A stretch of 45,967 nt of DNA from positions 1-45,967 of the IMG/VR virus record IMGVR_UViG_3300044912_000023, one strand, 5' to 3'. The notes beneath the pieces were generated by a model that worked only from the letters and a program-made list of their open reading frames with translations, was not told the DNA's origin and ran no database searches. How positions within the stretch are numbered: the first letter of the stretch is position 1; every line of letters begins with the position of its first letter. A program made the translations under genes and the position numbers. This DNA comes from a virus. Below, piece by piece: positions 13,801-29,613 of this stretch.

Positions 13801-14164
13801 TAGCTACTTTTAACAGCGTTGCATTTGGTCCACGTGGATTTTGAACTACATATTTTTCTGCAGTCCAATTTACCGTATGATTAACACCTGTTGCAAACGT
13901 TCTATCTGCATTAGGTGCTACGTAGTTAAAGTCACTAGATACTGCATGAAATACACGTGCGCCACCTACCATAGCTCTTCCATAAACTAGTGGGAGATCT
14001 TCTGACTTTCCTTCAATAACAACTTCAGCTCCTTTACGAGCTTCTAAAGCACTTGTGTCAAAGGCTGGTGGTGTTTGCATTAAGCTATAAATTGTCATTC
14101 CGACTGAGATAGCAACCATTGCTACCATAAGCCACATGCCAAGTGTTAGTGTTAAAAATACCAT
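4868..14164 (-). CDS. Giant tail hub / host-specificity protein, lambda J-like
   Basis: 3098 residues, far longer than lambda J (about 1130). A hydrophobic segment occupies residues 1-28. Residues 30 to about 680 carry J-type hub features: LPLVYGRAMVGG, an ICQGPIGG motif, a VKFHNE...SVSWP segment, and the ending YLEPGDFVKLNSP. Fibronectin-like modules follow at about 720-1130, then five repeats of about 120 residues (1142-1804) and about five of 170 residues (1950-2840). The protein should cap the tail tip as a trimer, with the repeats forming an extended arm. The start ATG overlaps the stop of the upstream gene (TAATG), which supports coupling. A 240-base GC-rich patch lies inside the first short repeat. 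J-like identity is by motif and position; the repeat functions are unknown. Confidence 0.82.
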   Translation of the reverse strand: MVFLTLTLGMWLMVAMVAISVGMTIYSLMQTPPAFDTSALEARKGAEVVIEGKSEDLPLVYGRAMVGGARVFHAVSSDFNYVAPNADRTFATGVNHTVNWTAEKYVVQNPRGPNATLLKVASTGTTEILTQLAKSINGRKNEFLYFQQAICQGPIGGVIDVVLESSRYLDDATLATFGAPDNLATGEKHKWSDPKKARTAVRIDVHYDLAMNVADSIIAANFPERSDATFNNMVYASATVRTDRDDPQFSQPPSLQFYIEGKKVRKVVNGVLNTNFEYSNNPAWCLLDYLLDGLSGASIPIEEINLPSFEAASLVCDYIVEPSVTTAGKIWQNTEGDRNIHTRALPLYECNMVIDTKKPIRDNITGMLTSMGDARLVWSQGQYKLSLQYTHTSNDDLFIVAELGEDDLVLDQEVEINLPSASDRLNYCTVKFHNELSNFKEDSVSWPPKFPGKVYKGVGGKKYPIADYSYTEDNDDGTFNKGANLLNSVGVWGSTLNTTYLSYHIILTYEDVMDPITNLLGPVKLEYTGDNQIRIKVSDKTTSNLYLDQQHKDWKSVKTSTITLPILPGETQVFHIEIWGTNTKGDKAVAARMTNGPKILWTTRESAYSDVLEIDNTSTTYSVFLEEDGGTKLEMETSVEAMTDPYHAAAKAEEYVRMSRSSFVIKFKYVVRENYLEPGDFVKLNSPTLNLAGEIFRINSVKIVEGNNCEVTAQRFDHLQLAWSQKDDQFMVPPNIYSNLFNPPRNLKYIPTGSSRLITSGTLTWDAPSDSVDLAYYIVSVHEADGPVRTNNAPIFRELGRVAENYYVLPKLEAFSAIFSVMAVSTSGRRSTTIYTGDKAQIIDVYDSYLFDGLTVSRSNLIVNWTACNVYESGVLLKALPAGTATWTEGLLFIYFDFVNDKIIKATTDYAEVYNGVILATFDGVDLNLSVSELDAPAVLTIEGRTDTVFDSKDAKIVWQANSSNRSASTFLKHYLVQVLTTADVLKKAYVITPDKDDAGSLLVTDTMNLELFGTLTRSFKVRVYTVDSAGLLSATPKVSTITNAAPLVTTLELTPTVKAVFVKAAIMSEDDIVKYEFKQYATETATTAENTVTTVSNSCTFPTADDLDRWYTVTGYDYYGIGVESARMKEKSLSQPQSTGYAFLRYASDTPPVAPTGGTYLLPTPTAGTATDPLGTLAWEDGIPDGTARLWQTTRIFTADEQPPHQTAWQTPQLVANTATTKYQYSSVNPPTTSYADWADAPGLTTLYMRVGISKDGADGPWEWGAAYKVKGEAPQTSFLSTVFTRSTGNTIPPLPTGGTFPRGIPSAPWSDGIPAGTGKIYTSNRLFTSDGQSPQDSTWNTVTLMVTNDKTKFQLNNSDPVDSNAWYDSDDASKDPTLAIYMRINYSEDGGTTWSYGAPSKIKGEKGVPGYTSFVSTVFTRTKGIPLPTPPLPSGGSFNSDGLPTDGVWTDGIPALPGVLWSSYRTFSNDPAEAATNWSTPVRILDDSNTDYQFSLTNSSDNSTWQDNEFEGAVYMRIGTSVDGVNFVYGTGIKIKGEKGNPGFISFKSTVFTRRAANNPVNTKPTGGSFEQPRPVETEWEDGIPSGEGIVWQSYTTFTNDVTAATPIWSDPEAVINDDKTKYYFNTTNATTGWSETPDINTVWMRIDTSIDGFLTTITGTPFKIKGEKGDDGYAVFKSTVFTRRAANNPPLEAPTGLTSGSLPVNTEWKDGIPPLPGILWESHASISTDPLITTTTWSFPKQILDDNNTKYYFNSANVATGWSQAPSTTTEWMRIDTSSDGFLTTVTGTPFKIKGEKGETGSGIDIRLTKELVYIPTTLADVSDYSNATTGIVVQNNNVDVVYSATAVTLVGALPNTYSVTFEKENLTGTPSLEVINGVVTSKDFGTITQGVARLIFVITIKDQYGNILGPFKKAQSLVKQFPDGVLDLLNTSKEQLSVNGTVLNPVTDITVTYSPDKNGDGRTDGFINWQYPLDAAISGFVVCYNNVRYAPGTTDYILSDYTCEDVLNNIKHQIVQIGTGSRVVRVPDMGTESHRVGFVFAFRILSKDTWDNYAFSKLKHKGEYYAVSSPTVLGTTIVEKSAPSRYTDVVNKDMEITLEDGTTIKVSEIFENGLRVNVINSNVALVAPTDGTVAFTYSNADAVSSSVNLQITFEASNVIAVTSGYAFCVISKDTADLVQFENLTVKQIMETKKTFTKFVDAANGILQPNGRFKYSVEAANVPGALNHAVYIFAFRYASGAKTSKATYTDGTTKIPYYVSPVLKAGTTKYSGNVIIKGDVIEDKTGTTTNLTDLYTVITDWNDGNNRTLTAITALPIIPTTPAPIVYDSSANSSGNVDYTLNFFYNGVVISPATGADDSIDGFCILEQTVLPNATGLPTADIAAPTVAKMIINPAARFIDAKDYVAIDNGTYKYEVKMPEAKAIPYRVVFIFAYRAISAGQAKLIQKGATLIELGTKEKKSYIVSTIVRTHPLATPSLFTGDLYIRAGLKDSYGNTIAINKLTETIADFDVTNNKSTAKIVPVTNLALSYNIIGCTSGNVNLVIDFYFTGSLTDIDGFIYYEATLPEQANISDLTHKTLFAKPDAKFIDVDSTVASAHFTVEIPESKTTLFRTVFVCAFREVYDSVYKAAGNLPTATRPDRLTYGKRFLIVGPIARSHVNGNLYQPQTQAIIKAGVNVGGTKVVTLSDAIGDWDLTNNGGLAGMTATVPAPTYPMDGTGMVLTGSTLETNVDILVKWEYVLAQILDPITNTLINPIDGFLIYLREDTNTSPDAMIDLNKLTVKHTFVTTDVDQREYTFSNMPMKTKKALNYYNIAVFAYHLISENTYTKGIKDSTIKSSLKRPAAFNTPMVISANTGYVFSANKSYVLKDTAGSLPHEFAIVGDYWLNTSGSTTAGIEHLSYGYFNSAGWSQLTEDEVIKKFNAARASKEGIIHTYSSPIEPPNKPGFYWKNTSADVQSGVASNGIVYWDIDRLLWQPKEAKIGGLIQATPAATIPYEGSVLLSTTVNLNGTRTLYRGRNGQWEPFVDLSSSEIFKTVKLMNANKVATKALVTDTGGYYTRVINSKGKLPAWSKTANDIFAKSLLAGNVLPTLIL
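5650..8310 (-). repeat. About five ~170-residue repeats in the distal part of the tail hub protein
   Basis: Copies share an Ile-Asp-Gly-Phe core followed about 90 residues later by a VFIFAYR-type strand (variants VFAFRILS, IFAFRYAS, IFAYRAIS, VCAFREVY, VFAYHLIS). They are strongly diverged, so the array is old. The fold is probably fibronectin/Ig-like. Boundaries are approximate. Confidence 0.65.
8755..10740 (-). repeat. Five tandem ~120-residue repeats in the tail hub protein
   Basis: Within the 3098-residue protein, five modules in a row share the order STVFTR, Pro-Thr-Gly-Gly, Trp-x-Asp-Gly-Ile-Pro, a Trp/Phe/Thr-rich middle, YMRI or WMRI, and a closing KIKGEKG. The last two are close to each other also at DNA level, while the first is divergent and GC-rich. 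Such arrays lengthen distal tail proteins and are hot spots for module exchange. Confidence 0.85.
10501..10740 (-). other. GC-rich island inside the tail hub gene
   Basis: Hand count gives about 137 G/C in 240 bases (57%), peaking at 65% in 10621-10680. The next block downstream in coordinates, 10861-10920, is 33%. The island coincides with the first of five protein repeats, suggesting that this module was acquired from, or recombined with, a GC-richer phage. Confidence 0.7.
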
Positions 14165-15000
14165 TAGATTCTACCCCACTTTAATACAAGAGCTTCTGAT
14201 CCTTCAAAGATTTGGTCACAAGAGGAATCTTTTGGAGTTAACTGACGTACATAATCTCTGCTTAGAAATAATGAATTCTTTGCGTCTAAGCTTCTCATTG
14301 GACTTGAACCAGTTACTTGTAATACAGCTTCGCCCATTTCTTGTGTCTTAATCGAGTATGCCGTACTATCTACACGTCCTTTATACACTAAAAGAGTATC
14401 AGAAAATTTGAAAAAAGGCAGACAAGTGTCAACATTTAAAAAGCCTAGTCTAACTTCAATAGGATAACCAATTAAATTATTAAACACAGTTTCCATTGAT
14501 TCTAGCCGTGGATCATTTAGTAAAATTCTAAATTGTTCTCTATCTACGTTAGTAGTAGCTTGTGGTGCATCCACACTTGCAATTGTATCATCTGAAATGT
14601 AGCTATGCCCTGGCACAGGAAGATCTGCAGAATCTAGTAGATCTATATCCATAAACAAACTTGTACTATGTATTACATTGTATTCAAATGTAACTTTTGT
14701 ATTTACAAGCTTTGCACTTGTTAAGGCTGGTGTGATAGTTACAGTAGTTGCAACAGTATCAGAAAGATCTCCGCCTGTAACAACTGAATAACTACTTGTA
14801 TCGCCTGCAAATTTAACAATTGCGCCAGCTCTTATTACTTTATTTTGTGTTGGAACTGCAGGGAGTAAACTTATTGTAGTGGCACCTACTGCAGCAGCAG
14901 CTATCGTGCAATCTGTTTCTTGTAGAATACGAAGCATATAAAAAGCTTCAATAGTATCTTGTTGTAGTGCCCACTTTACATTTGGGGTAAAAGTTATCAT
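14164..15000 (-). CDS. Distal tail / tail-tip protein
   Basis: 278 residues. It lies between the tape measure and the J-like hub, where siphophages encode the proteins that link tube to hub (lambda L and similar). The N-terminal segment, residues 1-25, reads as a beta-rich tail-tip protein without a signal peptide or membrane segment. The gene overlaps both neighbours by one to four bases (ATGA with the upstream gene, TAATG with the hub gene), so the three are probably made in step. No catalytic motif is visible. The call rests mainly on position and size; I do not recognise a specific family. Confidence 0.55.
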   Translation of the reverse strand: MITFTPNVKWALQQDTIEAFYMLRILQETDCTIAAAAVGATTISLLPAVPTQNKVIRAGAIVKFAGDTSSYSVVTGGDLSDTVATTVTITPALTSAKLVNTKVTFEYNVIHSTSLFMDIDLLDSADLPVPGHSYISDDTIASVDAPQATTNVDREQFRILLNDPRLESMETVFNNLIGYPIEVRLGFLNVDTCLPFFKFSDTLLVYKGRVDSTAYSIKTQEMGEAVLQVTGSSPMRSLDAKNSLFLSRDYVRQLTPKDSSCDQIFEGSEALVLKWGRI

Positions 15001-15629
15001 AACGCCTCTATTAATTTAATAACGCCATTATCCATTAGTAAACCGTCTTCATATACCATCCCGGTTACTACTTCTGTATCATATCGTACAGACATTCTAA
15101 CATCATCACTATATGTGATTAATGTACCTGCTGGAACTGCTTGTCTTAGCTGTGGGAATATTTTAAGTGTTGTCACCTGTGTTTCTGACATAGTGCAATT
15201 CTCGATAACCATATAGATCTTAGAATGATTTGCAAACTTAATGAATGTCCCGCTAGGTATTAGCTTACCTGCATTTATAGCTGTCATAGCAATAGCAAGC
15301 TGAGTTAAGCCGGCTACTCTATTAACTGTATCTGTTTGAACAAGTCCCTTAGCAGTTGTTTTTGTAAAAACAGCATAATTTTGAGGGACTATAATTTGAT
15401 GTACTGTGTCGAAACCCTTTGTTATAAAGTTTACCATCAAATCGTTAGCTGATTCCTTGAGAGGAGATAGACGAGTCTCTATCTCCCATCTCTGAGAAGA
15501 TCTACGTTGGATCGCACGCTTTAACGAAAGGGTATCCGAGACAAATACTGGCTGATTGCTCTTTACAGTCAATGGGACTACAAAGGATGCAATTATATTG
15601 CCTGAATCATCTAGGATACCGTGTATCAT
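14997..15629 (-). CDS. Distal tail protein (tape measure-proximal)
   Basis: 210 residues, starting in a TAATG overlap with the tape measure stop. Near residues 35-56 it has a charged LKRAIQRRSSQRWEIETRL segment of the kind seen in phage distal tail and baseplate-hub adaptor proteins that sit immediately after the tape measure. The rest is beta-rich with Val/Thr strands. It likely forms the ring between the last tube ring and the J-like hub. Function is inferred from order and this one segment; alternatives such as a lambda M-like protein cannot be excluded. Confidence 0.55.
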   Translation of the reverse strand: MIHGILDDSGNIIASFVVPLTVKSNQPVFVSDTLSLKRAIQRRSSQRWEIETRLSPLKESANDLMVNFITKGFDTVHQIIVPQNYAVFTKTTAKGLVQTDTVNRVAGLTQLAIAMTAINAGKLIPSGTFIKFANHSKIYMVIENCTMSETQVTTLKIFPQLRQAVPAGTLITYSDDVRMSVRYDTEVVTGMVYEDGLLMDNGVIKLIEAL

Positions 15630-18600
15630 TATCGTTTAATTCCTGCTTCTTTATTTTGTAAATTAACACCGCTCGCAATTGTAGGCATCATCTTAAAGAT
15701 TTCTGACTTAGTTTGACGAGAGATATCACCTGTTATATTAAGGTTAACTACCTGTTGAGTACTCTTTGTTGACTTATCTACCGATATTGGTTTAAAGCCT
15801 TTTGAAGTCGGTGTTGTCATAATGCCACTTGAAACGCCAGCTAAACCACCTTCTGCAAAGTGTTGACGGCCACTATTTAAGCTATGGAGAAGACCAAGGT
15901 TTGCCTTAGTAGCTGCGGCATTAACAACAAATTCGCCATTAGATATCATTGCAGGAATAGAGTCCGAAGTACCAGAGCCTGGTCCAACAATCTTTCCACC
16001 AGTAGCTGCTTTAGTACCGCCAAATAAACTCATAATACCGCCACCACCTGCACCGCCACCAAACAGCTTCATTAAGGGGCCAAGTAACTGCGAAATCATG
16101 CCCATAATACCACCTGCACCACCTCCGCCACCGCCTTTAATCATACCACCAATACCACCAACTAGTCCTGGAATCATTGTTAGCAAACCGCCTAGGGCAC
16201 GATGTTGAACCTTTTTACCAGCGTTGATAGAGTGTAATAACCCTAGATTACCCTTAGTAGCTGCTGCGTTTACGACAAACTCACCGTTAGACAAGTTAGC
16301 TGGAATAGAGTCAGAAGTACCAGAACCTGGGCCAACAATATGTCCACCAGTAGCAGCCCCAAGACCAAACAGACTGCCAAGACTTCCAAACATCTTACCA
16401 AAATCTAATTTTGAAAAGAAGTCAAAAATACCATCAAACATTCCACCGCCACCACCAACCATACCACCTGAAGCCGATAGATCACCCATACCTACACTAG
16501 ATATTGGTGTTAATCCAGGCGTAGCGCCATAACCGCTTGTATCGGCAATACCCTGAGTGGTTGCACCCTCCATACCTGTCTGTCTAGAGAAATTTGTCAT
16601 ACCCTCTGGAATGCCGTTTAAGCCGATTGTACTGCCATTAAGACCGCCAAAACCACCAGCACCGCCACCCATACTGCCAGTGGCTGCAAAGTTTTCTAAG
16701 GCTGTTGCGGCTGTTTCTAAGTGTTGAGATGCGGCTAACAAAGACTCAGCGGCTTGTTCAGCTTGCTGACTAGATAGCATGCCTGCAACACCACTAGCAA
16801 TAGAACCTAATGAACTTAGGGCTGTTCCTGTTTTACCGCCAATAGCTCTTCCTGCAAGGCTTGTACCCATTGAGACAATACCGCCTAGTGAACGTTTGAT
16901 TACTTCACCACGATTAATACGCTCCAACATTTCTCTGTTTTCTTTGGTAGCCTTTGCATTAACTACAAACTCACCATCAGATAGCATTGCAGGTATAGAA
17001 TCAGAAGTAGTTGTACCACCGCCTGAGACTGGTCCGCCATTAGCAAACTTAAGCTTAAGACTATCTAAGGGGCTTGTAGCACTTTCAGGCTTACCTGAAC
17101 TAGTCCCAACGCCCTGCCCAGCACCCGTAAAGAATGACATAATTCCTGTAAAACCATCGCCTATTAAACTAAAGAACCATTTAATAGGTTTCATAATTAT
17201 ATCCCACAGGCCTGTAGTGTCAGGGGTACTCTTAGCTAAAGAATCTGATAGACCAGCTGACCAGCCGTTCTTGTTACTGCTACTCTTATTATTAAATAAG
17301 CCTGTAACATCAGCATCAAAAGAATCCATTTTACCAAACAACCCTGTACGTGGATCTAATGTCTCCATAGGATTGCCGGAAGGTGTTAATGCACTACCAG
17401 CTTTAGTTGTAAAATTAGCACCAAGATCTTTTAAACCACTACTCCAGTCACCGCCTTTAGTTGCCATATAGCCCAACCCCGCAACGCCTGCGGCACCGCC
17501 AACCCACGGCAAGGCACTCATCAAGGCACCACCGATTCCGCTTCCTGTGGCTGCGTTAGCGGCACCAGAAATGGCACTCCCGCCTGCAAATCTGTCCACC
17601 GCGTCAGAGAATTTTGTAGCTGCCGCCATTTGAATCTCTTCAGGCGTAGCGTTATCAAGATCAGAAGTCAAATTGCTAAACCAATTACTAACGCCAGATG
17701 TAAATCCTTCCCAACTTCCTTTGCCAGATAGCAGGCTTTGAACACCGCCACCCAATGCGCGGAAACCAGAAGAAAGTCCTGTACCTGTTTTACTTAACAT
17801 TTTACTAAGCACTCCGCCTTTGCCAAGGCCAATACTATCTGTTACAGCATTTGTAAAGATATCTACAGTTTGATCTTTAATCCCTGTAATAAGTTTGTCA
17901 GCAAAAGTTTTAAATATAGATTTACCCTTATCACTTTCTCTGTTTAAAAGACCTTTAAATGCGTCCTTAAACGTAGAGGTTAATGACTCTGCAAATGTCT
18001 TACCTGCCTCTCTAGCAGCATTAGCAGCTTCTAAAGTTTTATCTTTAAGGTAACCCTCTGCATCCGCCAAATCAGCTAACTGTTTGCTTGTTTCCTGGGT
18101 TGACTTTCCAGCAATACTGTCTTTTGCCAACTTATCTTCTAAGTACAATTTCTGAATAGCCATAGATTTGGCAGTAGCTTTATCTGCTTCACTCATCATG
18201 CCAGTTACTTCAGTACCAATAGAACTAAATTTATTTAAGAATCCAGTAATATTATCTTTGTTAGCTGCCGTATATGCGCCAGCTTTTTCTAATTTAAGCT
18301 CAGCAATATTAGCATTTACACCTTCAACAAAAGAATTAATTTGATCATCAAGATTCTTTAGCGCTTGCGTTGCTGCTGAAGCATCATAACCTTTAGTACC
18401 AAGACCTTCTGTAAGTTGTTGCTGTACATTAGCTCTTGCTTGCGTCATTTTGTCTAATGCAGCAAACTGAGAACCAGATAATGTTTCTAATGTTTTAGGG
18501 TCAACACCTAAGGCATCTCCATACTTACCAGCCAAAGGCTTATTGCTAGTATTAAACTTTTCTAACAATGTACGCGCTTCTTTGGGAAGAGCATTCTTTA

Positions 18601-21600
18601 GGATTTCTAACTCATTAGCAGCAGGGCGTATATCTACTTGTTGTCCTAACATTTTAACATCTTTGTTAGGCAAATCTGCCAGCTTTAGTTCAGGTAAATT
18701 AGTATTAACACTTACTTGATCTGCAATCTTTTCAGCTTTATATTGATAATCATAAGGCTCATTATACGATAAGCTATTTGAAATGTTTTCACGGACTTTA
18801 TCTAAAGTATTGCCAATCCCATCAGAAGCAAAGTTACCAAACATTCTATTAAAAGAATCTAAGCGATCAACCATTTTAATGGCTTCGTCTTGAACAGTAA
18901 GGTTTATACCACCTACAATAATATCAGGACTAGTTCCGCCATCTAATGTGTTTGGTTTGAAAGGCTTGCCCAGAGTAATTTTACCCTGTATTCTTGTTAC
19001 ATCTTCATAAGAAGAACCAGATGGTGGTGGTTCTATTAGATTTTCGTAGCCTCCGAATGGTATGAAATTTTGAAGGTTTTTGTTAAAAGAACCAATAGGA
19101 CTTCTGCGTACTGCTTTGTCTAATACTGGTTTTAATATATCATAATTCTCAAAAGGTCCAGAGGCTTGTTTTGGCGGAGCAACATTACCTGCAAACGTAT
19201 CATACGCAGTCATTACCTTAGAAACATATGGAACAGTTTCCTTAGGCTTAGGCAAGTAGTCTAAGAAAGTACCACCACTAGCTTTAGCTTTTGCATTAGC
19301 CTTCTGTACACTACCTTCTCCAGCATTGTAAGCTGCCGCTACTTCTGGGAAAGTTGGGAACAACTTCATTAAACGCTTAAGATATCTAGTACCTCCAGAA
19401 ATAGATTCCTCTGGATCAGTACGATCAGAAACACCATAGTATTCCGCCGTTGTAGGCATAAGTTGCATGATACCTACTGCACCCTGACTGCTTACAGCTT
19501 TTGTACTAAAATTATTAGTTTCGCTTGCAGCAATTGCTTTAACAAGTTCAAAAGGTACTTTATTTATTTCAGCGTACTTTCTAAACAATTCATCGTATCT
19601 GTCACTAGTATTGCCAAAATCTTTTGTAGGTTTTGTTGTAACATCAACAGACTTGTTTGGTGGTACTTCAGTAGGCTTGCCGCCATTGGCAACTGTATTG
19701 GCATTTAATGCAGCTGTGTTAAACTTCAACGCATCTTGCACGCCATCTAATGCTACTGTGTTAAGCTGTACATCAGTAAATCCAACAGACTCTAATAGGG
19801 ATTTTCCTACTTTAGCAAATTCTTCAATGGTCTTTTCAGGGCCAAGCTCTTTTAGTCTATTCAAGACATTTGCTTGATCTTCATTCAAAGGGCCACTTTG
19901 TAACTCAGTTAGAATATTTAAGTTGTAAGCTCTATCAGTAAGTGATTTTCTTGCGCCTGGATCCATCTTTCCAAGTTCAGTAGCATCTATCTTAAGATCT
20001 GGAAATGCTTTATTAACTTGTTCTAATGCTTTACCAATACCACCGTGAATAGCTGCTTCAGCCTTATCAGCAAGCATTGCAAAGAATGATAGCAATGGTT
20101 GATAGCTAGATAATGCTTGGATATTTTTGCCAATACGAATTGCAACGCTATCTAGTACATCACCGCTATTAGTAATAGCTTCTGAGAGTTGTTGTTTCAA
20201 AAGTTTAGCAGTATTAGCAAGACCATTTGCAACACCTACAGATAGCTGTTCAGAAAGATTCAATCCATTTGAATTACCACTTAACTCATTTAAAATATCT
20301 AATGTATTTTGCTTAGCAGTCATTTGTACACGTTCTGTTAAACGTGCTAACGCCTGTAAACTATTTAGGTACTTATCAACAGCTGCTTGATCATTAAGTT
20401 CAATAGAATCTGACTTCAAAATATTAATGTATTTTGCAAGACCAGAGAATTCTTTTAAGAGACTTTTACCTCTTGTACTTAATTTATTAAGATCAATACC
20501 AAGAGCTTCTGCTACAGTACTAAACCCTGACTTATCGAGAGTTGCTGTAAATTTCAACAATTCAGTAGTACTTTCGTAGCCAGCTGCCTTACGTATCAAG
20601 CGTTGCTGTTCTTGCGGAGTTGTAGCCATAGATAGCTGAGAAGTTACAGAGGCTTTACCTCGGCTTAAAGCTAACGCAGCACTCATTTGATCTAATGTTA
20701 TTCTAGATCTTTGTGCGGCAGTTAAACCTAAATCAGATACAGCTGACATCATACTTTCGCCAGTTGTATTCTTCAAAACAGCTGCAAGATCATCTGCCCT
20801 TAACTTAAGATCTTTCAAAGCTTTTTGTTTAGCAATTAAATCTTCTTGTGGTAAGAACTGTGACTCAGGATCATCCAAATCTTTCTTAATACGTGCTATT
20901 TGATTACCAATACTCTTCAACTCTAAGAAAGTGTCTTGAGGTAGCAAATCAACACTTAATCCGCTAAAAGCAGCTTCAAGAGTCGCACTTACAGACATTG
21001 CAATCGGTGTTAATGCTCTATCTACGCTATTTAGCAATTTATCAATATCAACAACTAAGTCTAACTGGTGGTCAGCAACTGCATACTCTCTTAATATATT
21101 TAATTGCTCTTTATTAAGTAATAAGTTATTAGTTTGCTCTACACCAATCTCTCTGTAACTGCCTAAGACTTTTGAAGCATCTGCTGCATATAGGTTTGTC
21201 AACTTAGCACTAAGAGCTTCTGGTGTTTTAAGCATGTTTTCAAAAGCATTTTGCTTAGTCTCAAACCTAAAACCAGGAAGATTCTTTTGCTCTTGTTTTC
21301 TACGAACCAATTCAGCTGCGTATCTCTCTTGTAATATCTCATTACGCGCCTTAGCTGCACTTCTTTCCGCCAATGGCAATAAGTCAATATTTTCTAAAGA
21401 AGGCTTTTGTAATTTATTAAGCGACTGGTCTTCTACAAACTGAATCTTACGAATACGTTCTCTTAGGGTGTCTGTAAGATCTTCAGACAAGTACTTAAGC
21501 TCTTCTGTCAAACCTAGATTGATATCGTTGCCTAATTTTGTAACAGCCATTTGGCTTGATAAGTACTTATCAGCTTCTAATGTTTGCAAATAAGTTCTTT

Positions 21601-24600
21601 TATCAGCAAGTCTTTTCTTTTCAAACAAATTAGCATTGCTAAGCTCATTTGTAGGAAATTGTGTTTGCTTTACAAGCGTTTCACCACGAGCTTTAAGATC
21701 TTTACCAACATCAAAAGAACGTCCTGTCAATTGGAAGTCTTTAAGATTGTCTAAAGTTACACCAAGCGGTTTCCAGAATCCAGGTTCATTCTTAGCAATA
21801 GCTTCTCTAGCAGATACTTGTTTAAGCACTTCAGTTTGCTTTTTAGCAGCGTCTGTCCACTCTGTCAAAGCATCAATGTTTCGATCTATACTAGCATAAT
21901 AATTAGCTGCTAATGTTTTATTATCAAACGTTGCACCTTCAGGAGTAACCTCATATCTAAACTTCTTGAAATTTGCGTATACAGTGTCTAAATTAGAAAG
22001 CCTATCTGCGTACTCTAATGCCAATGGAGAACTTTTATCCATTGATGTATATGCTTCATTAGAACTCTTTACAGAGTTTACAAATGAAACTCGAAGATTT
22101 TCAGCTTCAAGTCTTGCTCTATCCATTTCAGACAAATCAGGGCCAATTGGTTTTATTTCTGCCCTTTTACGAGGATCATAAGTTGTCTGTATTTCAGGCA
22201 TAAAGCCTTGTTTAGACGGGAACTGTACATAATTTCTAGATAAGTAATCTGTTAGATTTCTGTTTGAAAACTTAGATGTAACATAGCCTATTGCAGCACC
22301 AATCGCAGCACCAACACCAGCTGTTATAGGTTTATACAAGGTAGGTACTGAGAATCCTAAGGCAGCACCTTCAATAGCACCAGAAGCAACTGCTGTACTA
22401 ACATCTTCTTCTAGCATTTTAACGCCAGTAAAAGCTACTGCAGTTCTTACAAGATTACCACCCTGCCCAGACATCCATTGACCAAGTGCAGCTGCCCCGC
22501 CTTCTCCCGCAACAACAGGAGCCGCTTCACCAACAGCTTTTAGCAATCTTAGCTTATTGCCTACAAGAACCATTATAGATGCAGCTAATGCTTCTTTCCA
22601 GTTATCTCCAATAAACTCTAAAGCTTGAGTACCACGAGAAGGATCTACTGTATTGCGCGTATCAAGCATAGTCATTTGATTGGCCATAGCTTCTACGTCA
22701 ATCTTAGTCTTAGCTGCAAACTCTTTTGACACACGAGATAAAGCTTTTAAAGCTTCTGAAGCTGCATTTGCAGTCTCATCTGCTACCATACCCATTTTCA
22801 ATCTCTCAGCCATTGAAGCAGCTAAAGCTTCTTCAGTACGCTTTTGAGTATCTTTGAATACAGTTTCTTCAGAGTAGCTAAGTTTACTCATGTCAATCTT
22901 AGAAATATCAAAAGAAGGAGCTAGTCCTAATTTAGCAGCCTCTATCATGCTTGATTCAGTGAGACCTGTCTTAGCATCTTTTGGTTCGCTTTTAAGACCT
23001 ATTGATTTCTTAAAGCCTTCCCACAACTCTGACATTCTATCCCATAGCGTTTTATGTGCTGTTGAAATAGAGTCCCAAGCAGCTGCCAATGCAACAGGAA
23101 TCCATGTCCATTTAAATAGCTTAAGATTTTTAGTATTGCTTAATGCGTTAAATACACCAGTTACAATATCTCTGCCGTAAATACCAGCAACTACTGCTCC
23201 GATGCCCAGCCCCATTGAAATACCATCTTGAGAACCATCTGACATCATAGAACCAGCTTTTGCGCCTAGATAGCCACCAGCGGCTAATAATCCCGCACCA
23301 GCAATACCCGCACCTGCAACAGCAGGCATATTATGACGAATAACAGAACCCTTACCTGCCGCCATTCTTTCGGCATGTCTTTGATCAAGGAATTCTTTTT
23401 GCGTGAGTCTAACACCAGATAGACTTCTTTGTACTGCATCCATTGCCATGAATTCAGCAGCGCTACCTATACCACGTCTTGCAAACTCTTTTGCATTTTG
23501 GCGTGCCATCCAATTTTCATTAGCTTGATTTCTTTCCCACTCTAGTTTAGCATTTTTACGAGCATCTCTTGCTGCTAATTGAGTTTCGTTTAATCTTTGT
23601 GGACGAGGAGGTGCTGTCATCGTTGGCATTATAGGCGGAACCATTGTACCAGGAGCTGACCGCTCAAACATATATTTTTGAAGATTATAAGAACGCGTTG
23701 CTGCTTCATCAGCTGCAATTGCAGTAGCATTTTGTCTTTCCCAACGCTTTGTAATCTTGTCCATTTGAACATCGTGTGCTCTGCTTAAGCCTACCTTCTT
23801 AGCACTCTTCATCATAAAGGTGCCAATAGCAGCAGGAATTAACAGATGACTCAAAGGAATTTCACCGCCACCAGGTACAGGCATATTACCTAAGTAATCA
23901 AAGCCCATTGAATGCCCCGTCCCCATGAAGCCTTCTTGTTCTCCACGTTTCTTTGGATTTGCTATTGCATTTACAAGGTTGCCAATTACATATAAAGCCA
24001 TTAACAAACTAGTTGCACGATACGTAGCTGCAGCGCTAATGCCTTTCATTGCAAAGTCTACTGTACCGCTAATAACTTTTAGAGTATTTGCAAACCTACG
24101 CATGCCGCTAGAAAGCACATCTAATACTGCAATGGTTTCTTGTACACCAAAAGCATTTCTCAAGCCTTTCTTATCAGTAGCGTTGATAAAGTTTGCCCGC
24201 GCTCTTTCACCGCCTGTTGCCATATTTGCAGCAGCAACCGCATAACTAGGCGCATTCATATATTGAGCAATACGAGATTTACGCGCAGATGCTATAGACT
24301 CTGCCAATACGCCTTCAGGTAACCTAAATGCCTTTGTAGCAGCTCTACTACCAACTGCTGCTGCACCTTGTAGTAGCATATCTACAGTTCTTAAGAGAGG
24401 CAATGCAGGTGCGAGTGTTGCGTTAGTATAAGCTAATTTAGCAAACTTAGCGTCTAGCTTCATAAACATTGCATCTTTTGCAATAATAGCTGCTTCTAGT
24501 CTAGCGTTAACAGCAGTTCTTAAGGCTATCCCAGGTCCACTCATATAAGCTGCATACGCGCCTAATGCACTTAACCCTGTTCCAATTGCACCAAAACCAA

Positions 24601-27600
24601 ATAGCTGAGGAGCATAAACAGCAGCTAAGAATCGCAAGACAACTGCCATTGCACTTCTAATTCTAACCGTAAGTAATTCAAGCCCTGCTAATTCTGGTCT
24701 TCTGAATTGAATCGTTTCTAAATACAAAAGTCTAATAACGCCTACCAAGCCTTCAACAGCCATGCTAAATATTGTCTTTAATGTATAAGACAGACCACTC
24801 ATAACAAGTGCGCCACGGTCAATATTTGCGTAAGTAGCTGCTGCAAATCGTTTGTATTCCTTAAATACAATCATTGACACACCTGTTGCTGCAGTAACAG
24901 CTAGCAGTATTTGTGTCGTAGTTGCTGTCATAGACTCCCAAAAGTCTAATGTTGCTTGTAACGGATTTGCGTCTGGAAACATTGGGGTTGGGATTTTCTC
25001 AGAATCTTTATCTTTAGCAGAGTAATTCTTAAATGGAGAATAATTATCAGAATCTATAGTTGCACCTTGCGCAGACATAGCTGACAATAAAGAGCCAACT
25101 AAAAACAATGCTGTAAATATTTGCTTTGGTGTAGGTATGATTTTGTTCAGTAAAGAACCGCCTTTCATGTTTGCAATTTTATCTTGCAAACGCTTCATAC
25201 CAGATTCAATACCAAGGATAAACCGATCAAAGAATCCAGAAGTATTGGCATCTCTTCCTAATAGCAAATGCTGAAGAAAAGTACCGCCATTTATTTTATT
25301 ACTTTTGCTGAAAGCTTTAGATAAGTGATCACTTGTCTTTAAAGAAATATTGTTCAGCTCTCTAGCCATCCATTGGGTAAACCCGCTAAAACCGCCAGTA
25401 CCAGACATTGTGACTTCTTTTCTCCACTTGTCTCTTACTTTGCCCCACACAGGACTACGATCCATTGCATTGTGTAGATGCGACAACATTGGATCAAGTA
25501 CACCTGTTTTCAAATCTTTAAGACCTGATTCACCTGTTAGTGCTAACCAAATCAAACCGCCTCTTGCGATTGCGTGCCCAATTACATTATCTTTGTACAA
25601 TGAATTAAACATGCCTGAGAAGTCCATCATCAACCCTGTAATAGCAAGGCTTTGAGTTCTGTTTGTATCATTAAAGAATGCTTTAGACATTTTGCCTAAA
25701 GGAGTAGGTTGTCCACCTGCAGTCTTATTGCCTGTGTAAGTACCCATAAAGAATGACTGTACACTACGCTGACGCTGTAATACATCACTCAAACCTTTGC
25801 GGTAGACACCTAATTCAACCATTAGTCTTACAAGAGATCCGCCAAATAGCCAAGCACCCAACAAACCTACTGCTGGTGCAGAACCAAACAAAGACGCAAT
25901 CTTAAAGATACCAGAGAATATTACACCAAGGTAAGGAAGACCTGTCAAGAAGTTTTCCATAAAGTTGCCAAAGAATGCAAAGCCTTCTCCAATCAATCTC
26001 GGTATATCTACAAGCGAACCATTAACAACACCAGATGCAATATCACCTGCTGCTTTGCCTAACTCTACGCCTAAGCTCTTATCAAAGGTATTTGCAGTAA
26101 TCGTAATAGCTAGTGATGTCCCTGCAATAATTGAGGAGGCTAGCAACCAACCGCCAATTACACCGTCTGCAATAACTTTAGGTAACGAGCTGAAAATCGT
26201 TGCCATTACTGTGGCTGAAAAGGCTTGTCTTAATGCCAATGGCCATGTGTTAAACCAAGCTCTAAATCTTTGATTTACAAAAGATAGAACACCAGACATT
26301 GTATCAGTGAATGAATATCTCAAACCTTTGAATAGTAAATCATTTGAAAATACATCTCTTAAGAATACAACAGACTTTTGTATAGAGTCCTCAATAGCTT
26401 TAGCGTATCCAGCTAAGTTAGGTGAATAGGCATATAGTTTGCTATTGAGTTTGAACATTGTTTTCGACAAATCAAGGCTAGCTATCCTATTTAAAACACC
26501 GCCAATCTTTGTATAAATGACTTCAAACAAGTCAATTACATTGTCTCCAAAAGTCTTGAGGCCTACTGAAGTATTGCCCCATAAGGTTGCAGATGTGTAT
26601 ATGATTTCATCAATAGTATCTGTCCACCAAGAATGTGCAATAACAGCGTCATATATCTCAAAGAACACTTGAATAACAGCATCACCAAAAGCTTGAATTG
26701 GAGCTAATGCTTTTATCAGAGTATCTGAATAATATTGTACCTTGTCTACCAAGGCTTCAAACCAATTTGTTAAATCTCCTCTTAAAGCTAATTCGGAGAA
26801 TGTTGTTATCCAATGTAAAAGTACATTTAAAACCTCAACAAATACACCAGAAGCATAAGACGCAGCGTCAGTAAGTGCACCAAATAAATCTATCTTTGAC
26901 AACATTGCTGTTGCAGATACAAGGCTATCTAAAACTTTATCAAGACTTTGCTCTATGTTTGAAAATACAACATGTACCTTAAAGGCAATAGGCATGTCTA
27001 TTTGCGCAAACTTAGGCAATACTAAATTAAGTCCTTCTGCTAGTCTATAGTATAATTCTTCAGTGAATGTTTCAGAAGCATTTACTAGAGAATTCATTAA
27101 AGAGTCTACTAGACCTGCCACTGTTACCATTAAGTTTCCAGCAATTCTTGCAAGCTTTGAGCCACCAAAACTAACACCAAAAAGCTTTTCAAGTATATTG
27201 TAGCCTGCTAGAGTTTCTCCAAGATCTCTTAAACCAGATACAAGATCCGTAGAAAGTGTTAAAAATAAAGAACCTACAAAACTGCTAATAATTCCAGCAA
27301 CAGAGTCAGTACCAAAGACAGTATCTCTTAAATTCTGTATTAATTGTTTAGACATTCTGTACCAGACAATTTCGCCACCTATATTAAAGGATCTCATTTC
27401 CTTTATTATGAATGCTCTAAAACGACCTGTGACAGATTGCTCATATGCCAAGATTTCTGCACTAACTTTTACTAATGTATTTCTAAGAGTTAATGCTGTT
27501 ATTTCGCCAATAGCTTGCATAGGTTTTAATAGATAAAACATATCATCGCCTTTGACAGAGCGTAGCATTTTGCCAAACATTTGCCAACGCATGATTGCGA

Positions 27601-28621
27601 TATCAATAGCAGCAGTAAATTGAGTTACAAAAGGCTCTATTACTGTGGTTATAAACCTTGTCAAACCAATCGTATCTAGAGAATGCTGTATTGCATATAT
27701 TGATATCTCTAACATTTGCTTAACAGGCTCTAGCAAATCCTCAAGTGGATTCTTAAAACCCACCAAAGAAAATCGCAAAGCATTTCCAAGTAAGTAAGCC
27801 TTGTCAACAGACTTTCCTAATTCTTGTGAAAGATTATAAACACTCTTTGAAAGCTTTTCAGACAGCGCCAAGCCTTTGTCAAATTCAACAAATACATAAG
27901 CTGCATTTTCTTTTAACTTTAAGAAACCTGTAGATAATGTAGGTACAATATTTTTGAATTCTTTATTAATTGTTTCTGCTTGATCTGCAAGTGCTTTGAA
28001 GATTACTTCAGAAGTTATTTCTCCCTGAGCAGCAATAAGTCTCATTTGACCTAATGTGACACCCATACTGTCTGCAATCATGCCTGCAATACGTGGTGTT
28101 TGCTCCATTACAGAGTTTAATTCTTCGCCTCTTAAAACACCAGAGGAGAAAGCTTGACCCAACTGAGTTAAAGCTGCTTTAGAGCTTTCTGCAGAAGAGC
28201 CTGAGATTGCTACTGCTTGTTGTATTGTTTTAGAAGACCGTGCTAATTTATCAATATCAACATTAGTGTTACGCATTGCGCGTCCCATTGCAGTAAATAC
28301 TTCAACGGTTTCTCTATAAGTACCATTGGTTTCATCTGCAATATTTCTAAGTCTTACTTGTGTATCATATAATTCGTTACTCTTACCTACAACTAGTGCA
28401 ACTTTGTTTTCCATCTCTTGTAAAGATGATGTAGTTTCTTCTACATACTTTAGAAGCTGATCTGCTGCAAAGGTGGTTCCAATTGCTATAAAAGCACTTT
28501 TGAAGCCATCGGCCATTGAATTCACACTTTGTGAAATTGACTTAACCGTAGTATTTACTTCCTCTAGATTTCTCTGTGCTTTTCGGGTATTAGCATCGAC
28601 TTCAATTACTATACCTGACAT
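15629..28621 (-). CDS. Giant tape measure protein with lytic transglycosylase domain
   Basis: 4330 residues, one of the longer tape measures for a siphovirus-like phage. Residues 1 to about 240 match the tape-measure N-terminal domain (TIGR02675 type), including GQAFSSGVLRGEELNSVMEQ. The long middle alternates amphipathic helices with hydrophobic segments (for example about 830-960 and 1280-1420). Residues about 3000-3145 are an SLT-type lytic transglycosylase: probable catalytic Glu3034, then AVSSQGAVGIMQLMP and AAYNAGEGSV, expected to open peptidoglycan during DNA entry. The C-terminus is glycine-rich with three copies of a TSDSIPA...GEFVVNA motif. ATG at 28621 has a GGAG site. An intrinsic terminator lies just upstream. 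At about 1.5 angstrom per residue the tail would be near 650 nm if the protein is unprocessed. Confidence 0.95.
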   Translation of the reverse strand: MSGIVIEVDANTRKAQRNLEEVNTTVKSISQSVNSMADGFKSAFIAIGTTFAADQLLKYVEETTSSLQEMENKVALVVGKSNELYDTQVRLRNIADETNGTYRETVEVFTAMGRAMRNTNVDIDKLARSSKTIQQAVAISGSSAESSKAALTQLGQAFSSGVLRGEELNSVMEQTPRIAGMIADSMGVTLGQMRLIAAQGEITSEVIFKALADQAETINKEFKNIVPTLSTGFLKLKENAAYVFVEFDKGLALSEKLSKSVYNLSQELGKSVDKAYLLGNALRFSLVGFKNPLEDLLEPVKQMLEISIYAIQHSLDTIGLTRFITTVIEPFVTQFTAAIDIAIMRWQMFGKMLRSVKGDDMFYLLKPMQAIGEITALTLRNTLVKVSAEILAYEQSVTGRFRAFIIKEMRSFNIGGEIVWYRMSKQLIQNLRDTVFGTDSVAGIISSFVGSLFLTLSTDLVSGLRDLGETLAGYNILEKLFGVSFGGSKLARIAGNLMVTVAGLVDSLMNSLVNASETFTEELYYRLAEGLNLVLPKFAQIDMPIAFKVHVVFSNIEQSLDKVLDSLVSATAMLSKIDLFGALTDAASYASGVFVEVLNVLLHWITTFSELALRGDLTNWFEALVDKVQYYSDTLIKALAPIQAFGDAVIQVFFEIYDAVIAHSWWTDTIDEIIYTSATLWGNTSVGLKTFGDNVIDLFEVIYTKIGGVLNRIASLDLSKTMFKLNSKLYAYSPNLAGYAKAIEDSIQKSVVFLRDVFSNDLLFKGLRYSFTDTMSGVLSFVNQRFRAWFNTWPLALRQAFSATVMATIFSSLPKVIADGVIGGWLLASSIIAGTSLAITITANTFDKSLGVELGKAAGDIASGVVNGSLVDIPRLIGEGFAFFGNFMENFLTGLPYLGVIFSGIFKIASLFGSAPAVGLLGAWLFGGSLVRLMVELGVYRKGLSDVLQRQRSVQSFFMGTYTGNKTAGGQPTPLGKMSKAFFNDTNRTQSLAITGLMMDFSGMFNSLYKDNVIGHAIARGGLIWLALTGESGLKDLKTGVLDPMLSHLHNAMDRSPVWGKVRDKWRKEVTMSGTGGFSGFTQWMARELNNISLKTSDHLSKAFSKSNKINGGTFLQHLLLGRDANTSGFFDRFILGIESGMKRLQDKIANMKGGSLLNKIIPTPKQIFTALFLVGSLLSAMSAQGATIDSDNYSPFKNYSAKDKDSEKIPTPMFPDANPLQATLDFWESMTATTTQILLAVTAATGVSMIVFKEYKRFAAATYANIDRGALVMSGLSYTLKTIFSMAVEGLVGVIRLLYLETIQFRRPELAGLELLTVRIRSAMAVVLRFLAAVYAPQLFGFGAIGTGLSALGAYAAYMSGPGIALRTAVNARLEAAIIAKDAMFMKLDAKFAKLAYTNATLAPALPLLRTVDMLLQGAAAVGSRAATKAFRLPEGVLAESIASARKSRIAQYMNAPSYAVAAANMATGGERARANFINATDKKGLRNAFGVQETIAVLDVLSSGMRRFANTLKVISGTVDFAMKGISAAATYRATSLLMALYVIGNLVNAIANPKKRGEQEGFMGTGHSMGFDYLGNMPVPGGGEIPLSHLLIPAAIGTFMMKSAKKVGLSRAHDVQMDKITKRWERQNATAIAADEAATRSYNLQKYMFERSAPGTMVPPIMPTMTAPPRPQRLNETQLAARDARKNAKLEWERNQANENWMARQNAKEFARRGIGSAAEFMAMDAVQRSLSGVRLTQKEFLDQRHAERMAAGKGSVIRHNMPAVAGAGIAGAGLLAAGGYLGAKAGSMMSDGSQDGISMGLGIGAVVAGIYGRDIVTGVFNALSNTKNLKLFKWTWIPVALAAAWDSISTAHKTLWDRMSELWEGFKKSIGLKSEPKDAKTGLTESSMIEAAKLGLAPSFDISKIDMSKLSYSEETVFKDTQKRTEEALAASMAERLKMGMVADETANAASEALKALSRVSKEFAAKTKIDVEAMANQMTMLDTRNTVDPSRGTQALEFIGDNWKEALAASIMVLVGNKLRLLKAVGEAAPVVAGEGGAAALGQWMSGQGGNLVRTAVAFTGVKMLEEDVSTAVASGAIEGAALGFSVPTLYKPITAGVGAAIGAAIGYVTSKFSNRNLTDYLSRNYVQFPSKQGFMPEIQTTYDPRKRAEIKPIGPDLSEMDRARLEAENLRVSFVNSVKSSNEAYTSMDKSSPLALEYADRLSNLDTVYANFKKFRYEVTPEGATFDNKTLAANYYASIDRNIDALTEWTDAAKKQTEVLKQVSAREAIAKNEPGFWKPLGVTLDNLKDFQLTGRSFDVGKDLKARGETLVKQTQFPTNELSNANLFEKKRLADKRTYLQTLEADKYLSSQMAVTKLGNDINLGLTEELKYLSEDLTDTLRERIRKIQFVEDQSLNKLQKPSLENIDLLPLAERSAAKARNEILQERYAAELVRRKQEQKNLPGFRFETKQNAFENMLKTPEALSAKLTNLYAADASKVLGSYREIGVEQTNNLLLNKEQLNILREYAVADHQLDLVVDIDKLLNSVDRALTPIAMSVSATLEAAFSGLSVDLLPQDTFLELKSIGNQIARIKKDLDDPESQFLPQEDLIAKQKALKDLKLRADDLAAVLKNTTGESMMSAVSDLGLTAAQRSRITLDQMSAALALSRGKASVTSQLSMATTPQEQQRLIRKAAGYESTTELLKFTATLDKSGFSTVAEALGIDLNKLSTRGKSLLKEFSGLAKYINILKSDSIELNDQAAVDKYLNSLQALARLTERVQMTAKQNTLDILNELSGNSNGLNLSEQLSVGVANGLANTAKLLKQQLSEAITNSGDVLDSVAIRIGKNIQALSSYQPLLSFFAMLADKAEAAIHGGIGKALEQVNKAFPDLKIDATELGKMDPGARKSLTDRAYNLNILTELQSGPLNEDQANVLNRLKELGPEKTIEEFAKVGKSLLESVGFTDVQLNTVALDGVQDALKFNTAALNANTVANGGKPTEVPPNKSVDVTTKPTKDFGNTSDRYDELFRKYAEINKVPFELVKAIAASETNNFSTKAVSSQGAVGIMQLMPTTAEYYGVSDRTDPEESISGGTRYLKRLMKLFPTFPEVAAAYNAGEGSVQKANAKAKASGGTFLDYLPKPKETVPYVSKVMTAYDTFAGNVAPPKQASGPFENYDILKPVLDKAVRRSPIGSFNKNLQNFIPFGGYENLIEPPPSGSSYEDVTRIQGKITLGKPFKPNTLDGGTSPDIIVGGINLTVQDEAIKMVDRLDSFNRMFGNFASDGIGNTLDKVRENISNSLSYNEPYDYQYKAEKIADQVSVNTNLPELKLADLPNKDVKMLGQQVDIRPAANELEILKNALPKEARTLLEKFNTSNKPLAGKYGDALGVDPKTLETLSGSQFAALDKMTQARANVQQQLTEGLGTKGYDASAATQALKNLDDQINSFVEGVNANIAELKLEKAGAYTAANKDNITGFLNKFSSIGTEVTGMMSEADKATAKSMAIQKLYLEDKLAKDSIAGKSTQETSKQLADLADAEGYLKDKTLEAANAAREAGKTFAESLTSTFKDAFKGLLNRESDKGKSIFKTFADKLITGIKDQTVDIFTNAVTDSIGLGKGGVLSKMLSKTGTGLSSGFRALGGGVQSLLSGKGSWEGFTSGVSNWFSNLTSDLDNATPEEIQMAAATKFSDAVDRFAGGSAISGAANAATGSGIGGALMSALPWVGGAAGVAGLGYMATKGGDWSSGLKDLGANFTTKAGSALTPSGNPMETLDPRTGLFGKMDSFDADVTGLFNNKSSSNKNGWSAGLSDSLAKSTPDTTGLWDIIMKPIKWFFSLIGDGFTGIMSFFTGAGQGVGTSSGKPESATSPLDSLKLKFANGGPVSGGGTTTSDSIPAMLSDGEFVVNAKATKENREMLERINRGEVIKRSLGGIVSMGTSLAGRAIGGKTGTALSSLGSIASGVAGMLSSQQAEQAAESLLAASQHLETAATALENFAATGSMGGGAGGFGGLNGSTIGLNGIPEGMTNFSRQTGMEGATTQGIADTSGYGATPGLTPISSVGMGDLSASGGMVGGGGGMFDGIFDFFSKLDFGKMFGSLGSLFGLGAATGGHIVGPGSGTSDSIPANLSNGEFVVNAAATKGNLGLLHSINAGKKVQHRALGGLLTMIPGLVGGIGGMIKGGGGGGAGGIMGMISQLLGPLMKLFGGGAGGGGIMSLFGGTKAATGGKIVGPGSGTSDSIPAMISNGEFVVNAAATKANLGLLHSLNSGRQHFAEGGLAGVSSGIMTTPTSKGFKPISVDKSTKSTQQVVNLNITGDISRQTKSEIFKMMPTIASGVNLQNKEAGIKR
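15860..17050 (-). repeat. Three copies of a TSDSIPA/GEFVVNA motif at the tape measure C-terminus
   Basis: Copies lie near 16900-17050, 16215-16350 and 15870-16010. Each encodes Gly-Thr-Ser/Thr-Ser-Asp-Ser-Ile-Pro-Ala, then Gly-Glu-Phe-Val-Val-Asn-Ala, then Ala-Thr-Lys and a Leu-rich tail, separated by glycine-rich linkers. The latter two are nearly the same at protein level and clearly alike in DNA. This motif is frequent at tape measure C-termini, which contact the tail tip. Confidence 0.85.
17461..17580 (-). other. GC-rich island inside the tape measure gene
   Basis: Hand count gives about 75 G/C in 120 bases (62%) in an otherwise AT-rich gene. It encodes a Gly/Ala-rich hydrophobic stretch around residues 3680-3720, of the type that could enter a membrane. 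Glycine and alanine codons raise GC by themselves, so import is only one explanation. Confidence 0.55.
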
Positions 28622-28669: not shown

Positions 28670-28963
28670 TTATTTAGGTGTAACAATTACACCATTAGGG
28701 CTTACATTTTCATTTGCAAGCAGAGTTCTTTCTATAAAATGCGTGGGCGCTTGTGTACTGCTCCCTGCATTGAGTCTATCAATGTATTCAACATCATTGC
28801 TTATCTGACCGTCTTCATATTTCCAACCTGCTCTAGCTCTACCCGTATCTATAGGTGTTGCTGCACGTAACTCTTCCACTAATCTCTTAGCTTCTTTGTT
28901 TTTGATAATTTCAGACTTTTGTTTAAACTCTGACATTAAATTTAAATCAATTTTCATATTCAT
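28670..28963 (-). CDS. HK97 gp10-like head-tail/tail completion family protein
   Basis: 97 residues. The central part has the family pattern: EELRAATPIDTGRARAGW, then an Asn-Asp-Val-Glu-Tyr-Ile strand, and LNAGSSTQAPTHFIERTL. HK97-gp10-like proteins act at the head-tail junction or in tail completion. Such a gene is normally placed before the tube gene, whereas here it follows the assembly chaperones, so it may instead serve the tape measure end. The ATG overlaps the upstream stop (ATGA). A second in-frame ATG two codons later is an alternative start. A terminator follows the stop. Confidence 0.75.
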   Translation of the reverse strand: MNMKIDLNLMSEFKQKSEIIKNKEAKRLVEELRAATPIDTGRARAGWKYEDGQISNDVEYIDRLNAGSSTQAPTHFIERTLLANENVSPNGVIVTPK

Positions 28964-29612
28964 TTAAGAACAGACTCCCCGCCTGTGGCAGTTGCAAGTT
29001 TCTGGAAGAATCCAGAACGCTTAAAGCTGCTGGTATCAAAACTACCATCCGAATTAGCCTTGGAGGGCGGATTATAAATAGGCTCTAATGAAGTAAATAG
29101 CTGCCAAGGCTTTTGATTAACACCCTGTGCCTGTAAAAGTTTGGAAGCACGATCATCTGCTCTCCACTCTACAGGCCGCCTTTCAAAATAGTTAAACCAG
29201 CCTAAAAGCTCTTCATAAGTCATATCTTCATATAACTTGCTAACAGGCATTTTAAGCTGATACGCTATTTCAAAAATAGGAAGCTCTTCGTCACTTAAGA
29301 CGACTTTCCCTGATCTTGACCCATACCTGAGAATTTCATAATATCATTTGAAAGTCTAGATAATTCATCCATTGGAAAGTTATCAAAATCATCATCGGTT
29401 AATTCGTCACCGCCTTCTACAGCAGAACGAATTACTAGTTTCAAAACTTCCAAACCAGCAGTCTCATCTTTTTCAATATCTTGAGCACGCTTTTGGATTT
29501 CTACAACTTCTGCTACTGTTAGTTTCGAAATTTTAACATCACTACCTAAAAATTTAGTAGATTTGTTCATTTTTTGGCCGACTAGACCTTTAATACCTTT
29601 TGCTTCTGACAT
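28960..29612 (-). CDS. Tail assembly chaperone GT fusion made by -1 frameshift
   Basis: Reading 29612 to 29304 in the G frame, then re-reading the base at 29304 and continuing in the -1 frame to the stop at 28960, gives a 217-residue product. The frame downstream is open from the slip site, with no stop before 28960. The layout matches lambda G/GT, where the longer product binds tape measure and tube protein during tail assembly and is absent from the mature virion. The T part (about 114 residues) has a TYEELLGWFNYFERRPVEWR segment and a disordered C-terminus. An internal ATG at 29250 could in principle start the T part alone, but no good ribosome site is seen there. Confidence 0.85.
29295..29612 (-). 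CDS. Tail assembly chaperone G
   Basis: 105 residues from the ATG at 29612 (AAGG site 8 bases upstream). An earlier in-frame ATG at 29642 lies inside the preceding gene without a better ribosome site, so I prefer 29612. The protein is helical and acidic at the end (GGDELTDDDFDNFPMDEL), as in lambda G-like chaperones. It ends 9 bases after the slippery heptamer. The short form is presumably made in excess of the fusion. Confidence 0.82.
   Translation of the reverse strand: MSEAKGIKGLVGQKMNKSTKFLGSDVKISKLTVAEVVEIQKRAQDIEKDETAGLEVLKLVIRSAVEGGDELTDDDFDNFPMDELSRLSNDIMKFSGMGQDQGKSS
29304..29310 (-). promoter_or_regulatory. Programmed -1 frameshift site GGGAAAG
   Basis: In the G frame the heptamer reads G GGA AAG, allowing slippage to GGG AAA. 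It is the same heptamer used in lambda G/T. It is three codons before the G stop, and the -1 frame is open to 28960. Confidence 0.9.
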
Positions 29613-29613
29613 A

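Follow-up and report, generated by a model that had tools for sequence, protein, structure and literature searches.

In the siphophages P23-45 and P74-26, gp96 is a giant single-chain tape measure protein (TMP) of 5,002 aa, and the tail is very long: a review states only >800 nm, and 875 nm is the upper end of the reported lengths quoted in a paper on phage Douge (PMC13033339). P23-45 carries a virion RNA polymerase (RNAP), a two-barrel enzyme on the TMP N terminus, whose unusual flat shape was linked by its authors to passage through the tail; a second, non-virion RNAP is also present. Phage N4 likewise packages a single-subunit RNAP in its virion and has a second phage RNAP, but N4 is short-tailed and its virion RNAP is not known to be fused to a MuF protein. 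MuF head proteins are believed to accompany the DNA on delivery, and fusions to MuF are believed to carry effectors in this way; in SPP1, the MuF protein is a minor component bound to the portal in one or two copies. The Gordonia phages Hotorobo, Woes and Monty also have a very long TMP gene (9,984 bp), shorter than the one described here, and a measured tail of ∼540 nm; the passages on them consulted in PMC4982279 mention no virion RNAP.

The window analyzed here is the whole of a 45,967-base stretch, IMG/VR virus record IMGVR_UViG_3300044912_000023. It is a fragment from an uncultured tailed phage, with the genes for head and tail all on the minus strand. The tail module runs in the order adaptor, terminator, two tube proteins, chaperones, Neck1-like protein, TMP, Dit-like protein and a huge tip protein. 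The features on which the analysis rests are as follows.

40205..41800, minus strand, portal protein, encoded just ahead of the MuF-RNAP (PHROG 145, E = 3e-55; DUF4055)
35259..40193, minus strand, MuF head protein fused to a single-subunit RNA polymerase (MuF-RNAP), 1,644 aa, 187.0 kDa
31150..31560, minus strand, tail terminator (PHROG 179, E = 3e-8)
30578..31147, minus strand, major tail tube protein, copy 1 (PHROG 158, E = 3e-6)
29876..30568, minus strand, major tail tube protein, copy 2 (PHROG 158, E = 1e-8; 57.6% identical to copy 1)
29295..29642, minus strand, tail assembly chaperone, G-like frame (position, a weak Phage_TAC_7 match and the frameshift architecture)
29304..29310, minus strand, slippery heptamer GGGAAAG for the -1 frameshift from G to GT, in frame X XXY YYZ
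28960..29303, minus strand, T-like extension frame of the chaperone (weak Phage_tail_T match; PHROG 337, E = 1e-4)
28670..28963, minus strand, tail completion or Neck1-like (HK97 gp10-like) protein (PHROG 169, E = 5e-11)
15629..28621, minus strand, TMP, a single open frame of 4,330 aa, calculated mass 463 kDa
14997..15629, minus strand, distal tail protein (Dit-like), directly after the TMP (PHROG 1302, E = 2.5e-14)
4868..14164, minus strand, 3,098-aa protein in the tail-tip (J-like) position (position and a weak fn3-like stretch)

No sheath gene was recognized in the tail module, and the gene order marks the tail type as non-contractile, that of a predicted siphophage. The 3,098-aa protein at the tip position has no PHROG match. 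Adjacent tail tube paralogues occur as a pair in the window and in four relatives (G002, G003, G008 and G016), and singly in other relatives; the idea that long tails go with tube duplication was dropped, the pattern being inconsistent among relatives. No structured RNA or intron was detected in the window at Rfam thresholds. The sole genome match is a contig in a gammaproteobacterial metagenome-assembled genome, and it is also recorded as a viral contig of the same length; therefore, the match does not settle the host assignment.

The module order, with GGGAAAG ahead of the TMP, is that of lambda gpH with gpG/gpGT, and the heptamer is identical to that of lambda G. A slippery heptamer in the correct frame is found in nearly all relatives (GGGAAAC in DSS3_VP1 and CCCAAAC in G013); none was found in EBPR siphovirus 1, and the upstream region retrieved for G009 is too short to show one.

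The TMP gene starts with ATG, with GGAG 7 nt upstream, and continues for 4,330 codons with zero internal stops. The chance of an open frame this long at 38.6% GC is ∼10^-127. An identical 4,330-aa frame is present in two further IMG/VR contigs from other samples (L063 and L064), and a third phage, G002, has a 4,352-aa TMP that is 69% identical end to end. Between G002 and the window, dN/dS is 0.10–0.33 in every 300-codon block except one (codons 3925–4224), which shows almost no changes, so that its dN/dS is uninformative. By these ratios, the frame is under purifying selection throughout. Selection, the improbability of the frame and the copies in other contigs together argue that it is translated along its length, and a chance or artefactual frame is ruled out by the selection and the identical copies in other data sets. 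In the exceptional block, pS is 0.004, compared to about 0.5–0.7 in most of the gene; this near-identity even at silent sites indicates a recent exchange of the C-terminal region. TRF found no tandem repeats in the TMP DNA of the window, whereas a 5,895-aa relative does have repeats.

The preliminary description of this stretch had read positions 15629–28621 as a 4,330-residue tape measure. The frame is exact, and the domain matches bear the assignment out. The features located within the protein are listed below.

27875..28438, minus strand, TMP_3 N-terminal domain, residues 62–249 (Pfam PF20155, E = 1.1e-46)
25817..26176, minus strand, hydrophobic (membrane-like) segments, residues 816–843 and 900–935 (Kyte-Doolittle scan)
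19277..19588, minus strand, SLT lytic transglycosylase domain, residues 3012–3115 (Pfam PF01464, E = 9.8e-24)
16871..17053, minus strand, DSIPA...GEFVVNA C-terminal motif, copy 1, residues 3857–3917
16178..16363, minus strand, C-terminal motif, copy 2, residues 4087–4148
15836..16006, minus strand, C-terminal motif, copy 3, residues 4206–4262

In addition to TMP_3, a known tape-measure N-terminal domain, the protein matches many PHROG tape-measure families (down to E = 1.6e-64), and its N terminus matches a solved phage tape measure, chain M of 9occ (phmmer, E = 3e-18). Its gene occupies the siphophage tape-measure position, after the tube genes and the frameshifted chaperone pair and before the Dit and tip genes. 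The SLT domain, which is the best-modelled part of the AlphaFold model, retains the catalytic Glu 3034 and the GIMQLMP and AAYNAG motifs. Weaker hydrophobic segments lie at residues 1235–1301 and 1536–1554, and relatives have similar segments. A 100-degree hydrophobic periodicity extends across most of the protein, and residues 2165–2977 are 85% helix in the AlphaFold model, at low confidence (mean pLDDT 50). These features are consistent with a mostly helical ruler, in line with a rise of 1.5 Å per residue. Residues 3601–4200 are glycine-rich (20–28% G+P), and a helical form is not required there. The third C-terminal motif is the copy common to the C termini of most TMPs compared. Neither the P23-45 TMP nor lambda gpH has significant sequence similarity to this protein. 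A polymerase fused to the TMP, as in P23-45, was considered and rejected, as no RNAP domain was recognized in the window TMP and it has no such similarity.

The expected tail length was calibrated on eight published phages: T4 (TMP 590 aa, tail 92.5 nm) and phage G (2,893 aa, 450 nm; PMC8570332); TP901-1 (937 aa, from 810 + 127 in the text, 118 nm; PMC5099701); Douge (1,699 aa, 269.6 nm; PMC13033339); phiCbK (1,964 aa, 300 nm) and Colossus (2,155 aa, 336 nm; PMC3556154); Tsamsa (3,123 aa, 440 nm; PMC3903500); and Hotorobo (3,327 aa from 9,984 bp, ∼540 nm; PMC4982279). They span 0.126–0.162 nm per TMP residue, with a mean of 0.151. Regression gives a slope of 0.157 nm/aa (r2 0.98) and, for 4,330 aa, a length of 670 nm with a 95% prediction interval of 595–746 nm, which is an extrapolation past 3,327 aa whose far end is supported only by P23-45. 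Since the measured phages fall within 0.126–0.162 nm/aa, the TMP would predict a tail of about 650–670 nm (plausible range 595–760 nm). The preliminary estimate of about 650 nm thus agrees with the calibration, as a prediction from which C-terminal processing could take 3–11%. Its comparison with lambda also holds: gpH, at 853 aa, is about one fifth of the window TMP (ratio 5.1), and the predicted tail is several times as long as lambda's. By this estimate, the tail would be among the longest known, but neither a record nor a new kind of thing.

The actual tail could deviate from this value in either direction. It would be clearly shorter than 600 nm if the TMP were cut during assembly or if part of it did not span the tube. 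Lambda gpH loses a piece close to its C-terminal end by trimming, and the three DSIPA...GEFVV copies (the motif itself at residues 3873, 4104 and 4220), which resemble the gpH C terminus at a non-significant level (E about 1), could be processing sites. The Tsamsa TMP appears as two bands (280 and 100 kDa), yet the Tsamsa tail of 440 nm still fits its full-length 3,123-aa TMP (PMC3903500). A cut at the last or the first motif would cost just 3–11% of the length (637 or 585 nm), and the frame is under purifying selection; we regard a tail much below 600 nm as very unlikely. A longer tail of about 700–800 nm, as in P23-45/P74-26, would result if parts of the TMP were more extended than a helix. 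P23-45 itself, with 5,002 aa for >800 nm (up to 875), gives 0.16–0.175 nm/aa despite its folded N-terminal RNAP, and a fit that includes it at 875 nm shifts the estimate for 4,330 aa to 715 nm (626–805 nm). All eight other phages are at or under 0.162 nm/aa, which makes the longer tail unlikely, although less so than the shorter one. A tail near 670 nm is the preferred prediction.

The second unusual component of the window lies in the head gene block. The MuF-RNAP gene, located between the portal and the scaffold/capsid genes, encodes a Pfam Phage_Mu_F domain at residues 141–246 followed by RNA_pol (PHROG 241 and 414). Motifs A (D), B (K..YG) and C (HD) are invariant across relatives, including DSS3_VP1, so the catalytic motifs needed in a virion RNA polymerase are intact at the sequence level. 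A profile search of the PDB matched T7 RNAP only weakly, in the region of motif C (E about 0.002); the AlphaFold model of the core has low confidence (mean pLDDT 49) and is too poor for a fold search. The polymerase of 180 kDa noted in the preliminary description is present, but its mass is 187.0 kDa, and its fusion to a MuF head protein was not visible to that description, nor were the longer TMPs and the second RNAP of relatives. The enzyme differs from that of P23-45 both in kind, being T7-type, and in its carrier, being joined to MuF instead of the TMP.

The same fusion occurs in the roseophages DSS3_VP1 and DSS3_PM1 (Noahvirus, Naomviridae), whose TMP N terminus is homologous to that of the window. 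In DSS3_VP1, the protein labelled 'minor head protein-like protein' (QGH74596.1, L071:6243-10634) is a MuF-RNA polymerase fusion in a named phage; its RNAP core is about 33% identical to that of the window. DSS3_VP1 has a second RNAP, as in the relatives of the window, but its TMP has just 1,655 aa, for which the ruler rule predicts a tail of about 250 nm, and the shared features seen between DSS3_VP1 and the window are the MuF-RNAP and the TMP N terminus only. EBPR siphovirus 1 (JF412302) has a MuF-RNAP 58% identical to that of the window and homologous TMP termini; its TMP is annotated as two frames of 1,211 and 2,141 aa. At the split lies a 70-bp tandem duplication with small differences (L070:40535-40674), possibly an assembly error.

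The MuF-RNAP gene carries additional segments in the window and in several relatives. In the window, an in-frame insert of ∼103 aa just before motif A (residues about 988–1090; window ∼36920–37230) is absent from L004/L005, which are otherwise 96–99.7% identical, and recurs in L030. Another in-frame insert of ∼230 aa follows motif B in L007 (13307-13999), L016 and L030 (13631-14326); it contains KYIAMQVVEELGEFLDE and has no Pfam match above cutoff. Group I introns (Rfam RF00028) interrupt the gene in L008 (13224-13459) and L028 (14219-14425).

All the relative contigs of ≥60 kb that were tested contain a second, stand-alone RNAP of ∼750 aa; the window is a fragment without the corresponding region, and the second enzyme is known from its relatives. 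In G009, G011 and G028, the gene for this RNAP is broken at a common position (query residue about 519) into two frames separated by about 0.5–0.8 kb, suggesting that an intron or insert lies between them. A separate second phage RNAP is also found in N4 and P23-45, and by this parallel the MuF fusion is probably a head-packaged virion RNAP that passes the tail unfolded. Its presence in the virion and its injection are suggested by the MuF fusion and the gene position. It would work in the same way as the N4 virion RNAP. Folded compactly, a protein of 187 kDa would measure about 7.5 nm in diameter (estimate). The T4 tail tube measures about 4 nm inside, and the narrowest point of the Douge tail is 2.1 nm (PMC13033339); ejection would therefore require unfolding.

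It is also conceivable, if rather improbable, that the enzyme is not ejected, either because it is retained in the head or because it serves late genes and is linked to a head protein in one chain without further significance. Its gene is located in the structural gene block, and in SPP1 the one or two copies of the MuF protein are bound to the portal as a minor component. On the other hand, the separate ∼750-aa RNAP, present in all ≥60-kb relative contigs tested, makes the fused RNAP dispensable for later transcription, fusions to MuF are believed to carry effectors, and the two-RNAP logic is that of N4 and P23-45. We favor ejection of the MuF-RNAP. The preliminary description considered ejection of a polymerase through such a tail remarkable; this is overstated, because a virion RNAP on the tape measure has already been described for P23-45 (5,002-aa TMP, >800 nm) and Hotorobo has a tail of ∼540 nm. 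Virion RNAPs have precedents, while the MuF fusion seems to be undescribed: no description of it was found in the papers searched.

A MuF-RNAP profile led to 267 viral contig stretches with a relative, of which the larger contigs were examined. Within the window's own lineage, where RNAP identity is about 80% or higher, TMP frames range from 3,370 to 5,895 aa; in more distant relatives they are mostly 1,900–3,300 aa. The 5,895-aa TMP is a complete single frame that recurs without change in three contigs, each from a different data set (L090, L091 and L094:1277-18988), and would correspond to a predicted tail of ∼0.9 µm. It exceeds the 5,002 aa of P23-45, which is the longest in the papers searched. 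From about residue 3670, it contains 66-bp tandem repeats that encode a 22-residue W/F-containing unit. L095 is 99.98% identical to L094 over 12,252 bases and then switches to a different repeat; it ends about 650 bases past the switch, where an assembly error is possible. L096 is 94–95% identical to L094 up to the switch point, then differs too, and continues for 1.6 kb. The divergence of both from L094 begins after about base 12,060–12,250 (TMP residues 3,600–3,660), and the repeat regions are unrelated. Near-identical phages thus seem to have different C-terminal repeats, which suggests rapid turnover at this end of the ruler.

We assign a probability of roughly 0.78 to the overall reading, in which the TMP is the ruler of a flexible siphophage tail of ∼670 nm and the head-stored MuF-RNAP is ejected down its tube. 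In this scheme, chaperones G and GT, the latter made by the -1 frameshift, would coat the TMP, which sets the length of a flexible, non-contractile tail. Tube rings would stack from the Dit/J tip complex along an alpha-helical TMP bundle up to its end, where the terminator would cap the tube at ∼670 nm (about 600–750 nm). On infection, the TMP would be expelled first, its SLT domain opening the peptidoglycan and its hydrophobic segments possibly lining a channel. The DNA would be next, along with the portal-stored MuF-RNAP, unfolded within the tube. The polymerase would then refold in the cytoplasm and transcribe early genes, including the gene for the second RNAP.

The unusual parts of this system are the MuF-linked polymerase and the still longer, variable rulers of the relatives. 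A more far-reaching proposal, which we hold tentatively and at somewhat less than even odds, is that this lineage has the longest tail rulers yet recognized (up to 5,895 aa, predicted 0.8–1.0 µm), lengthened by hypervariable C-terminal repeats that are swapped between near-identical phages, and a MuF-RNAP delivered unfolded from the head through the tube. Fast C-terminal turnover would alter tail length between close relatives. As predicted here from genes, the lineage adds to the few phages whose tails exceed half a micrometre, and its related rulers spanning 3,370–5,895 residues make the ruler rule testable at the long end. The MuF-RNAP is proposed to be a second, independent solution to passing a virion RNAP through a long narrow tube, an idea made testable by the deposited DSS3_VP1 and DSS3_PM1.
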